From a bacterium (lineage in GTDB: Bacteria; Armatimonadota; UBA5829): a stretch of 64,000 nucleotides of DNA. This document shows, one piece after another, positions 4,647 through 8,865 of the stretch (positions are counted from its first letter, which is position 1; each line of letters opens with the position of its first letter). Made by a program: the position numbers and the translations under genes. A model generated the notes under the pieces. That model did no database searches. It was not told the origin of the DNA and saw only the letters and a program-made list of their open reading frames with translations. The stretch spans positions 1 to 64,000 of the forward strand of contig JAJFVF010000004.1 in NCBI GenBank assembly GCA_021371935.1, read 5' to 3'.

Positions 4647-5990
4647 CTACATAAACATCAGATATGGAGATTCGAGTGTCTGCTTGAGCCTGGCAAGGAA
4701 TTCGGCTGCCGGAGCGCCGTCCATCACTCTGTGATCAAACGACAAACAGAGATTCATCATCGAACGGACCTTGATCTCGCCGTCGACAACAACCGGCTTG
4801 TCCTTGATTGCGCATACACCCAGAATCGCGCTCTGACCAGGAGTAATGATCGGGGTGAATGTTTCCACGCCGAATGCACCGAGATTTGTTATGGTAAACG
4901 TGCCACCCTTGAAGTCATCTCCACCGGCCTGACCTGATCGCGCACGGGCGACAAGCTCCTTGATCTCTTTTGAAATCTGAGGCAGAGTCTTGCTGACTGC
5001 ATCCTTGACGACCGGGACCACAAGGCCGGTCTCTATCGCGGTCGCTATACCGATGTTGATATGGTCGTTGATGATTATCTGGTCGCCCTGCAGTGATGCG
5101 TTAGCAATCGGCTTGTCGAGGATCGCACGCGCAGTCGCCTTAGCTATGATATCCGTGAATGAGATTCGCACGCCATAGTTCTTCTCGATATCGTCGATGA
5201 TCTGAGAGCGCAGCCGCTTGCACTCGGTCATGTCGACTTCGGCTACAAGCGTGACATGAGGAGCCGTCTGCGCGCTGGATGCCACATTCAATGCCACGGC
5301 CTTGCGCATGCCCGTAAATGGAATGGTTGCGCCTATCGAAAGAGGCGGAGCTGCGGGCACGTAGACAGGTGCGGGCTTGAGGTCCTCACTGGTCACCTTT
5401 CCTCCGATTCCTGTTCCGGTAATCGCACTTATGTCGACACCCATATCAGCCGCCATCTTGCCTGCCAGAGGAGTGGCTTTGGGAGCTGAAGCTGCGAAAT
5501 TGAGTACGTCCTGCTCCACTATTCTGCCGCCTGGACCAGTCCCTCTTCCGGCAAGTGCAGCAATGTCAACGCCCTTCTCTTTTGCAACTCTCTTTGCGGA
5601 TGGCGAAGCAAATACGGGACCTTCGGCTGCGACAGGAGCAGGCGAAGGCTGTGCTGCAGTTGCTGGAGTCGGTGTAGGAGCAGGGGCTTCAACAGACACC
5701 GCTTCTTCTTTCGCCGGAGCGCTCTCGGCAAGCAGGTCATCTATTGATTCGTCGGCACTGCCTATTATCGCAATCGGGTCCTTTACTGGAATTATATCAT
5801 CCGGCTGAGCAAGTATCTTACGCAAAACCCCATCCTCTGGGGCTTCCACCTCCATATTGACCTTGTCGGTCATTACTTCCAGAAGCGGCTCGCCGGCTTT
5901 GATCTGATCGCCTTCGTTTTTGAACCACTTGATTATCGTCCCCTCCTCCATTGTCTGCCCGAGGAGAGGCATCACCATTTTCGTGGCCAT
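4647..5990 (-). CDS. 2-oxo acid dehydrogenase complex E2 (dihydrolipoyl acyltransferase)
   Basis: Core component of a pyruvate or branched-chain 2-oxo acid dehydrogenase. Order of domains in the 447-aa product: lipoyl domain (about 1-77) with lipoyl lysine K43 in TDKVN; Pro/Ala linker; a first peripheral-subunit-binding domain (about 128-165); a second one (about 172-205); then the acyltransferase domain with H420 and D424 in DHRVMDG. Two subunit-binding domains are unusual, since most E2 proteins have one. No E1 or E3 gene is beside it. I chose ATG 5990 because AAAGG sits 11 bases upstream; an in-frame GTG at 5999 is only 2 bases from that site. Which 2-oxo acid is used cannot be told. Confidence 0.88.
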   Translation of the reverse strand: MATKMVMPLLGQTMEEGTIIKWFKNEGDQIKAGEPLLEVMTDKVNMEVEAPEDGVLRKILAQPDDIIPVKDPIAIIGSADESIDDLLAESAPAKEEAVSVEAPAPTPTPATAAQPSPAPVAAEGPVFASPSAKRVAKEKGVDIAALAGRGTGPGGRIVEQDVLNFAASAPKATPLAGKMAADMGVDISAITGTGIGGKVTSEDLKPAPVYVPAAPPLSIGATIPFTGMRKAVALNVASSAQTAPHVTLVAEVDMTECKRLRSQIIDDIEKNYGVRISFTDIIAKATARAILDKPIANASLQGDQIIINDHINIGIATAIETGLVVPVVKDAVSKTLPQISKEIKELVARARSGQAGGDDFKGGTFTITNLGAFGVETFTPIITPGQSAILGVCAIKDKPVVVDGEIKVRSMMNLCLSFDHRVMDGAPAAEFLARLKQTLESPYLMFM

Positions 5991-6171
5991 CGCATTCACA
6001 ACCTTTCTATATTTGGCGGAATTGATCCGCGTGCTTGTCTATCATGTAGACTACGCTGTCCGACGGCACTTTTCCTTCCGGCAGATTGGTTACAGACAGC
6101 GAAAAAAGAAAATATTGGCCATGTTATAAGCCGACAAGACCCTCCGTCAGATCAATCGAATGACGCCCCGA

Positions 6172-8592
6172 CTATCGGACAAATGATATTGTCCCGGTTC
6201 CACCATCTATGCTTATAAGGTCACCGTTACGAATCGCCGGAATATCACGAACACCGGTAACCGCTGGAATACCGAGTTCCCGGCATAGGTTAGTCTCGTG
6301 ACAGAGCCAATTGCCGCAATAAATGAGACCTGCAATGATGGGAAAATACATTGTCCATCCTACTTTTCCCTCGCCGCGCAGCCAGAGAATCTCGCCCGGC
6401 TGCAATTTCGCTAACTCCTCTGGGTGATCTGTTGAAATTATGCGCACAGGACCCTCCGCAACTCCTGCATTTGCAGGTTCACCCTGAAAAACTTCACCAC
6501 CAGGGAGGCTTTCTTGTATTGGTGGAGGCAACTGTGCCATAGTGTAGCGCGCCAAACGCCTCTGCTCTGTTTCGCGCTGTCTCACCAGCACAGCAATTCT
6601 GTGTAAATCAAGCTTATCAGATGCTACAGCCACAATTTCATCTGGATGCAGCAAGAAAATGTCATCCACATTCTCAATGACTCCCACTTTCACAAGGCGG
6701 CGTCCGGCTTCGCAAAGCACCAGCCGAACAGCGGACTGAGCGTGTGATAATACCAGGTCTCTGTCATCCTTTAAGGGAAATATGCGACGAGATGCACGCA
6801 CACATGCTGCAAAGATTTTCTCGTATGATTCTCCACCACTCATACTGCTTCGGATAGCTTCCAGAACTTCACCAAAACGAACATCGCTTTCATCGGCAGC
6901 ACACTGCACACGCTCGGAAATAGAGGGCATATCAGGAATTTTGCGCAGATTGCTCACTGCGAGGTCCAACGGTGTCGTGTCCTCTCTCCAGCTCCTCCAG
7001 GTTGCAATGTCCAGCAGGTCATCTCGCCTAAGAAAAGAATAACCCCAATGAGCTATTACATTCTCCAGTTTATCATCGCGAGCAGCCTGCTCTATTTCGG
7101 CATCGCGCAGATGTGTGAGCTTTGGCGCACCCTGGATCATAGTGAGCGCGACTTGTTGGGACTGCTGCCATGGCAGACTCAGGCAATCGCGCACAATCAC
7201 ATCAATTCTACGCAGAGTCTCATAGGTAGGATATGATCCCGCCAAGTAGAGGGTCCCGGCTTCCCTGTCAAGTCGAACGGCTTCGTCAACCAAGTCTGCA
7301 AAATCACATTGGCTCATGGCATGCAGCAGATCATCAGACATACGAAGAATATGCTCAGAACGTGCCCGCAGTGAAGGAATCATTTGTCCATAGACGACGT
7401 CGGCGTACTCATACCAGTCCTTATAAACGATATTTGGATCATCATATGACAACATCCGCTTGATAAACGACCGATCCTCCCATGGAGATTCGGGGCAATC
7501 GGTCAGTTCCGGGTTATTGGGTATTTTACCGAATGCGCGCCCATGATGAATGGACATTTCGCATAACTCCATCGGCCATGGAGGAAGGGGAAACGTTGGA
7601 TCGATATCGTCTACAAAACCAGCTTGCGCATATGGCGTCAAAGGCTCCATCCGTTCCTGATGACAGCAGATAACTTCTTTATTATCAAGGCGGGGATCAT
7701 CCGGGAAATATGGAGGCAGATTCACCACAGGCCGCGCCTGCAAAACTGCTATGCCTTGTTCTGAAACAGCAAACTCCATATCAATACGCATATTGAACAG
7801 GCTATCGACCTCGCGAACGAGTCCGCCTATCTCATGGAGTATCTCATCATCCAGCGCTGGTTTTTCGCGCATGGCTCTATCGATACCACGAGTCTGTATG
7901 TGCCCCCCGTCGCCAAGAAACTCTCCGATAGTCTTGCAGCATATCTGCCTCTCTCTGACTGCCAACGTATCCCAGCCAAGAAGAAAACAATCTACTTGTG
8001 ACTTTCCATCAACCACTGTCGTGCCTAAGCCATAGTTCGCCGATACCGCTATAACGAAAGGATTGCCGTCCACCGGATGAGCTGAGAATGCCACACCTGC
8101 CGCGTGAGCATCTATCATCGGCATTATCAACACGGCCATACACTGCGGTACGTTCGTCTTTGAGACTTGTCTATGATAAGCCAGTGCTTTGGGTGAAAAC
8201 AAAGATGCCCAAACCCTGCGCACGGCTTTCGTCAAGGATGCATGCCCTTTGACGCCCAACACCGTCTCGAACACACCGCTGTAGCTGGCGGAGGTGCCAT
8301 CCTCCAAAGCCGCGGAACTACGCACTGCTAAAGGAATATCAGGAAGTCGTGCCAACGCCTGCAGCAATTCAGCCGTCAATTCACCGTCTTGCACCTTCGC
8401 GTAAATTTCCGCATCTGGAATATCGTCGTTTATTCCCCATGCCGCGAAATGCTCTCGGCAAATTTGCGCCGGGATAACCCAACCTGATGGCACCGGTAAC
8501 CCGGCCTGCATCAACTTGGCCAGGTTTCCTACCTTTGGGCCGATTGTTGTCGAATCTTCATTACAGGCATCCGCAAGTGATATTATACTCAT
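6172..8592 (-). CDS. PEP/pyruvate-utilising phosphotransferase (PEP synthase / rifampicin phosphotransferase-like)
   Basis: The 806-aa product has an N-terminal ATP-grasp domain of the PPDK_N type (K20 in GPKVGNLAKL; AVRSSAALEDG near residue 90), a divergent middle region of about 400 residues, and a C-terminal phosphohistidine swivel domain with H765 in LCHETNLCRELGIPAV. The C-terminal PEP-binding barrel of true PEP synthase is absent. This gives the three-domain layout of rifampicin phosphotransferases and related enzymes that move the beta-phosphate of ATP through a histidine to an acceptor. The acceptor here is unknown. ATG 8592 has AAGGA 9 bases upstream. An in-frame ATG at 8664 falls in the loop of the leader hairpin and is rejected. 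Confidence 0.75.
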   Translation of the reverse strand: MSIISLADACNEDSTTIGPKVGNLAKLMQAGLPVPSGWVIPAQICREHFAAWGINDDIPDAEIYAKVQDGELTAELLQALARLPDIPLAVRSSAALEDGTSASYSGVFETVLGVKGHASLTKAVRRVWASLFSPKALAYHRQVSKTNVPQCMAVLIMPMIDAHAAGVAFSAHPVDGNPFVIAVSANYGLGTTVVDGKSQVDCFLLGWDTLAVRERQICCKTIGEFLGDGGHIQTRGIDRAMREKPALDDEILHEIGGLVREVDSLFNMRIDMEFAVSEQGIAVLQARPVVNLPPYFPDDPRLDNKEVICCHQERMEPLTPYAQAGFVDDIDPTFPLPPWPMELCEMSIHHGRAFGKIPNNPELTDCPESPWEDRSFIKRMLSYDDPNIVYKDWYEYADVVYGQMIPSLRARSEHILRMSDDLLHAMSQCDFADLVDEAVRLDREAGTLYLAGSYPTYETLRRIDVIVRDCLSLPWQQSQQVALTMIQGAPKLTHLRDAEIEQAARDDKLENVIAHWGYSFLRRDDLLDIATWRSWREDTTPLDLAVSNLRKIPDMPSISERVQCAADESDVRFGEVLEAIRSSMSGGESYEKIFAACVRASRRIFPLKDDRDLVLSHAQSAVRLVLCEAGRRLVKVGVIENVDDIFLLHPDEIVAVASDKLDLHRIAVLVRQRETEQRRLARYTMAQLPPPIQESLPGGEVFQGEPANAGVAEGPVRIISTDHPEELAKLQPGEILWLRGEGKVGWTMYFPIIAGLIYCGNWLCHETNLCRELGIPAVTGVRDIPAIRNGDLISIDGGTGTISFVR

Positions 8593-8745
8593 AGCTTCAC
8601 TTCCTTTCCGCATCAATAGCCAATAACAAAGGCACCTGCGTACACACACAACCAACTGCAACATGCAGTGTTTATGGTATACGCAGGCGCCTCAAGGGTT
8701 GATTGGCTGTATCCTGCCAATTATTGTTTTTTTTGCTGTCAACCG
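8593..8745 (-). promoter_or_regulatory. Structured mRNA leader of the PEP phosphotransferase gene (candidate attenuator/riboswitch)
   Basis: From a predicted start near 8744 the leader can form P1 (8739-8744 with 8697-8702), P2 (8716-8721 with 8702-8707) and a 12-bp P3 (8680-8691 with 8631-8642, one G-U pair in RNA) whose loop contains CTGCA-TGT-TGCAG (8656-8668). The right arm of P2, GCCAAT, can instead pair with a second ATTGGC at 8619-8624, close to the Shine-Dalgarno. Mutually exclusive pairing of this kind is typical of cis-regulatory RNA. I recognise no known riboswitch class. Confidence 0.5.
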
Positions 8746-8750
8746 CATTT

Positions 8751-8778
8751 ATTATAGCCTGTTGTGGAATCCAGTCAA
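8751..8778 (-). promoter_or_regulatory. Sigma70-type promoter for the PEP phosphotransferase
   Basis: On the minus strand TTGACT (8773-8778) and a perfect TATAAT (8751-8756) are 16 bases apart. Transcription from here would give the leader of about 150 nt described next to it. Confidence 0.65.
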
Positions 8779-8865
8779 GTGCACTGTAAGACTTCTTGTA
8801 CAACCCGTAGACTCGCCAATAAATATCAAATATAAAATAATCAATACTAATTTTCTTGTGCTCTT

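Follow-up and report, generated by a model that had tools for sequence, protein, structure and literature searches.

The stretch of DNA analyzed here (64,000 nt, referred to as the window) carries at positions 6172-8592 of the minus strand a gene for an 806-aa protein with PPDK_N and PEP-utilizer domains, a distant relative of rifampin phosphotransferase, PigC, and PEP synthase. Although both domains are present, the protein scored 178 bits against the NCBIfam RPH model (cut-off 999) and was not assigned to that family. No orthologue was found in the genus or among the 291 genomes of the phylum, where the best match was partial (35%), nor in viral contigs, and no relative in the genome_contigs set exceeded 27% identity. 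Gene, leader, and promoter together make up a segment (6087-8820) that is missing between the same two neighbors in sister genomes. In G001 and in G004, the closest congener, the E2 gene (at 4647-5999 in the window) adjoins the aconitase gene (from 8906 in the window), and homology to both genomes breaks at ~6087 and ~8820. The breaks and the joined neighbors imply that gene, promoter, and leader arrived, or disappeared elsewhere, as one unit, so that the segment would represent either a lineage-specific gain or a loss elsewhere. Short inverted sequences, TATTGGC/GCCAATA, were seen near the segment ends (6114-6120 and 8815-8821), possibly by chance. Because the gene has no orthologues and was gained or lost with its leader, a comparison of orthologous leaders was impossible, and a DNA search with the window leader matched only itself.

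The promoter, which an earlier note on this DNA had already singled out as a good one, consists of the -35 hexamer TTGACT (8773-8778) and the -10 hexamer TATAAT (8751-8756) on the minus strand, spaced by 16 nt, and agrees with 11 of the 12 consensus bases over 8778-8751. The leader that follows (8593-8746, minus strand, ~154 nt) runs up to the ATG at 8592, and all of its parts given below are on the same strand. Helix P1 is formed by GGUUGA (8739-8744) and UCAACC (8697-8702), as the earlier note proposed. Between these strands lie a 17-nt A-rich segment, CAGCAAAAAAAACAAUA (8722-8738), and the sequence GCAGG...GCC (8717-8705), which overlaps the loop of a second hairpin, P2. Compared with dinucleotide shuffles, P1 and P2 together fold at -10.4 kcal/mol (z -3.3, 2/500), the whole leader has a z of -4.4, and P3 reaches -43.7 kcal/mol (z -8.3, 0/500). 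The last of these, described earlier as a 12-bp helix with an inner hairpin, is a real and conserved helix that proved to be longer, with 16 pairs between its 5' arm AGGCGCCUGCGUAUAC (8677-8692) and its 3' arm GUGUACGCAGGUGCCU (8630-8645); the inner hairpin (8655-8669) occupies the loop region and its sequence is not conserved. The U-rich tract UUUGUUAUU (8622-8630) directly 3' of P3 makes P3 a terminator candidate, and judged from the sequence, an intrinsic terminator is thus predicted between the promoter and the start codon. The Shine-Dalgarno region GGAAAGGAAG (8600-8609) is unstructured (z +1.1).

Rfam 15 contains no family matching the window leader or 20 homologous loci, which gave only chance-level miRNA-type hits below gathering, and the sole gathering-level hit in the window was a tRNA. 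The rifamycin-associated element is a 19-bp inverted repeat found upstream of rifampin-inactivating genes; no match to its consensus with up to three mismatches was found in the window. These results agree with the earlier note, which had recognized no known riboswitch, T-box, or rifamycin-associated element. With the window leader as its only sequence, a covariance model (R1) run on 41 relatives matched, besides that leader, full-length sequences in two distant genomes of the phylum, G016 (45 bits, E 1.6e-7) and G031 (39 bits, E 9.9e-6), the E-values of this and the following models being rough. Both are leaders located directly 3' of a promoter and 5' of members of one uncharacterized protein family unrelated to the window gene. 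Among the three sequences P1 reads either GGUUGA/UCAACC or GGCUGG/CCAGCC, five pairs changing on both sides. The three-sequence model (R2) retrieved 28 full-length copies in the phylum, and the model made from those 28 (R3) retrieved 30 full-length copies in 12 of the 291 genomes, with up to six per genome and scores of 54-104 bits; the window copy (8620-8746, minus strand) scored 79.2 bits (E 8.5e-14). The next-best R3 matches, at 26 bits or less, were the reverse-strand echo of the P3 palindrome. With relaxed filters, R3 was also run on another 34 genomes, among them all congeners examined, and gave two matches of 22-25 bits that do not look like copies, as one resembles coding sequence (L099) and the other spans 62 bases only (L098). 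Matches in plasmids, phages, and a viral contig were short and attributed to chance (on follow-up L088 scored nothing and L075 11.5 bits). By this homology evidence, the leader is one copy of an RNA family that is previously uncatalogued in the sense of having no Rfam match, descriptions elsewhere in the literature being conceivable.

The copies share one order of promoter, leader, and candidate terminator. The promoter consensus is TTGACA-N17-TAnnnT, with TTGAC- at the same position in 29 of the 30 copies and TAnnnT ending 4-6 nt 5' of the element in all of them (4 nt in most). The element opens with the P1 5' strand GGCUGA and a segment that always measures 17 nt and nearly always ends in AAAACNAUA, followed by a variable stretch able to hold extra hairpins. 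GCAGG, 3-5 variable bases (expanded by an inserted hairpin in one copy), CGC(G/C/A), the P1 3' strand UCAGCC, and 4-5 nt come next, and the element is completed by P3, whose 5' arm, (C)GCGCCUGC..., and 3' arm flank a variable top, and by a U-rich tail. The P3 hairpin is kept in the 30 copies and most have the U-rich tail, the tract being weak in several GC-rich ones. In alignment A8, P1 and P3 show standard pairs in 95.8% of cells, and double-sided changes number 38 where shuffles give 9.5 (0/500); this alignment was fitted to the model and is biased towards the structure, and the count includes shared ancestry, many copies being close relatives. Unconstrained folding of full-length copies recovered P1 in 28/29 and P3 in 24/29. 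The 30 homologues, the compensatory changes seen in P1 and P3, the fixed promoter, and the lack of an Rfam match thus support the proposal of a new cis-regulatory RNA.

A DNA element, such as an attI/attC-type integron recombination site or a cassette boundary, could in principle have been taken for an RNA. The resistance-like character of the genes described below and the position of the window copy, inside a lineage-specific insertion together with its gene, would fit such an element, and there is a precedent in the aac/aad "aminoglycoside riboswitch." That leader was proposed to act on translation, is disputed, and has been argued to be an attI site (PMC5418344, citing Roth and Breaker 2013). 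The family resembles it in lying 5' of acetyltransferase genes, but differs in having its own promoter, a candidate terminator, and covariation. Every copy has that promoter at a fixed distance and stands 5' of a gene, the covariation tracks RNA pairing, and the U-rich tail is directional. Moreover, the element occurs upstream of ordinary chromosomal genes and cassette arrays were not observed, making a recombination site highly improbable.

Our analysis uncovered a second conserved pairing, S2, a putative antiterminator which competes with P3. The sequence GCAGG(N3-5)CGC between the P1 strands can pair with (N)GCG-CCUGC of the P3 5' arm; GCAGG...CGC(N) mirrors the P3 3' arm. In the window, the outer part GCAGG (8713-8717) has its partner at 8687-8683 and the inner part GCC (8705-8707) pairs with GGC (8691-8689), so GGCGCCUGC within the P3 5' arm doubles as the S2 3' strand. 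S2 and P3 are thus conserved structures that exclude each other, and since the S2 5' strand lies between the P1 strands, P1 and S2 together would form an H-type pseudoknot. In alignment A9, which was not fitted to any structure, P1 and S2 show 98.0% standard pairs versus 28-46% with slid partners, and five pairs with double-sided changes versus 0.9 in shuffles (0/500). Most copies have CGCG/CGCG as the inner strands; L045 has CGCC/GGCG, the window and L077 have GCC/GGC, and L047 has UGCC/GGCA. Among 23 representatives, S2 pairing was better with the copy's own P3 arm than after the arms were swapped (P = 0.0006), and when the transcript was ended at the P3 5' arm, unconstrained folding produced S2 in 20/29 copies. 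Since the GCAGG/CCUGC half is nearly invariant, S2 draws its support from complementarity and from the CGC half. The stability of P3 greatly exceeds that of S2, which means that any switching must be kinetic.

The earlier note had likewise proposed two exclusive folds, built on a duplicated ATTGGC hexamer, one of them close to the ribosome site. An exclusive fold does exist, but it uses another segment and is directed at the terminator; the Shine-Dalgarno region, unstructured as it is, is not touched by an ATTGGC switch. P2 (8716-8721/8702-8707) can pair as described, sharing base 8702 with P1, but it is not conserved, and its covariation was not supported in the own-versus-swapped test (P = 0.21). 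Of the features on which that proposal was staked, P1 and P3 are conserved in the homologous leaders, while P2 and the ATTGGC pair are not. The hexamer in fact has three copies on the minus strand of the intergenic region; the third copy (8820-8815) lies ~98 bp upstream of the second, and the spacings of 97 and 99 bp are probably due to chance. An operator role for the ATTGGC palindrome was also rejected, as the genome holds a single P2-type dyad, which in relatives is no commoner than a reversed control.

A passive element, in which a 5' hairpin and a leaky terminator set expression level or stability and nothing is switched, would account for P3 providing most of the folding energy and for the weakness of some U-tracts. 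Such a terminator would, however, need neither the constraint on the A-rich segment nor the complementarity between S2 and the P3 arm, and we regard this explanation as improbable.

The genes behind the copies are resistance-like and mostly non-homologous. The next sense gene of the 30 copies encodes a GNAT acetyltransferase in 10 cases (several Eis-like by domain type, Acetyltransf_9), an ABC exporter in six, and a methyltransferase in three, counts that are not independent since orthologues recur within one family of genomes and shared ancestry is included. One copy each precedes an APH/EcKL kinase, the RPH-like dikinase of the window, a DUF4037 protein, and a radical SAM protein, and two precede an uncharacterized protein family. 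Four others lie 5' of DUF4350, MutS2-like, ThuA, or PPIase genes, some of which are distant or may have their own promoter, and in one case the contig ends before the next gene. The link to a PEP-utilizing phosphotransferase, made in the earlier note, is therefore incidental, the same RNA standing elsewhere in front of acetyltransferases, methyltransferases, kinases, and exporters. The A-rich segment and the GCAGG...CGC core are conserved 5' of these non-homologous genes with a common theme, as in an aptamer. Models of defense systems gave generic methyltransferase matches only (to L053). Behind one copy (L081, 1306-3677), three consecutive GNAT acetyltransferase-like frames were observed. In the ABC-exporter group (L063, L070, L071, and L072), a Shine-Dalgarno-like GGGGGAGACC and ATGATGA follow the terminator 5' of the exporter gene; ATGATGA opens a very short frame (7 codons in L063), and a second layer of control could be conceived.

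The uncharacterized family (loci L045, L047, and L091-L097) comprises open frames of ~530-570 aa in 8 of the 291 genomes, with no Pfam or NCBIfam match. Its orthologues have the RNA leader in two genomes, and in six, including the window's own, no copy lies upstream; the leader is thus a module detachable from its gene and moving independently of it. In the window's genus a different conserved block, GGCGAACAAAAYGYCTGCCGGCAGACTATATAG-like, is found ~50-220 nt upstream of the start codon at L092-L094, possibly a promoter or operator.

One conserved core in front of many different genes would also fit a global trans-acting regulator, that is, an RNA-binding antiterminator or terminator protein recognizing the leader in place of a small molecule, and the genomes that hold one copy could have a single such protein in common. 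Against this stand the patchy occurrence (12/291 genomes) and the orthologous genes that lack the element, and we consider a protein-binding site unlikely.

A similarly small chance is given to a ribosome-sensing attenuator, in which a leader peptide is translated and drug-stalled ribosomes shift the leader to an antiterminator. This is the mode of ermK, bmrCD, and lmo0919, ribosome-mediated attenuators found before resistance-type genes that include ABC transporters and methylases (PMC5418344). Our family shares with them a (here predicted) transcription attenuation ahead of genes of the same type, and a frame that opens with CUG/UUG in P1 retains Thr-X-(Asp/Glu)-(Lys/Arg)-Thr-Ile-like codons across the fixed 17-nt segment. 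It differs in that no conserved leader ORF with a start codon and a Shine-Dalgarno sequence was found among 29 copies. 5' of P3, ATG occurs in only 2/29 and no ATG, GTG, or TTG is common to the copies; no Shine-Dalgarno sequence precedes a start, and stop codons fall anywhere from codon 9 to past the element. The absence of a common start codon makes a leader peptide unlikely.

We favor, with moderate confidence, a model in which the leader is a transcription attenuator controlled by the pseudoknot, with a toxic small molecule most likely stabilizing the latter, so that the RNA would act as an ON riboswitch. Once the promoter fires, P1 would fold at the 5' end of the transcript, and GCAGG...GCC would pair with GGCGCCUGC as soon as this is transcribed, making the H-type pseudoknot. 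If the pseudoknot is held, P3 would stay incomplete and RNA polymerase would read into the resistance-like gene. Otherwise, P3 would displace the pseudoknot and, together with the U-rich tract, end transcription, leaving the gene off. What we infer is that the pseudoknot represents the ON state, that transcription ends at P3, and that a ligand of this nature is bound, the conserved A-rich segment presumably being part of the binding pocket. The element is probably an ON switch for a toxic compound. A directly bound toxic small molecule is the most likely signal, a protein or a ribosome-linked signal being possible. The presence of enzymes against many different drugs under one leader counts against a single cognate drug.

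A general type of ON riboswitch has an aptamer that includes the 5' strand of the terminator (PMC7736828, discussion section). Relative to that type, the new family has a sequence unrelated to any Rfam family and a ligand that is hypothetical. There is also a likeness to the guanidine-IV riboswitch and its orphan variant Gd4v, which are described as presumed ON switches that lie 5' of genes for GNAT acetyltransferases and drug exporters and contain a pseudoknot and a Rho-independent terminator (PMC7736828, PMC9788692). The leader shares with them the terminator, the pseudoknot, the GNAT and exporter genes, and the presumed ON character. As described there, however, two hairpins, one of them the terminator stem, are joined by the pseudoknot, whereas in the leader P1 is 5'-terminal and encloses the S2 strand complementary to the 5' arm of the terminator. 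The associated genes also differ and Rfam gave no hit, the leader being set apart provisionally, by these descriptions.

Going further, and more tentatively, we propose a new riboswitch class, somewhat short of an even chance in our judgment, in which an H-type pseudoknot aptamer is the direct sensor of either a toxic natural product or a common cellular drug-stress signal and frees the terminators before scattered resistance genes. Traveling with or without genes, it would be a portable inducible promoter-switch module. Whether natural leader RNAs sense antibiotics directly is a long-disputed question, and the family gives many copies for tests. If our interpretation is right, a little-studied phylum would hold an orphan riboswitch-like family, with promoter, ~120 nt of RNA, and gene forming a compact inducible module, and ~30 candidate resistance-type genes, several of unknown function, would be induced by one signal.
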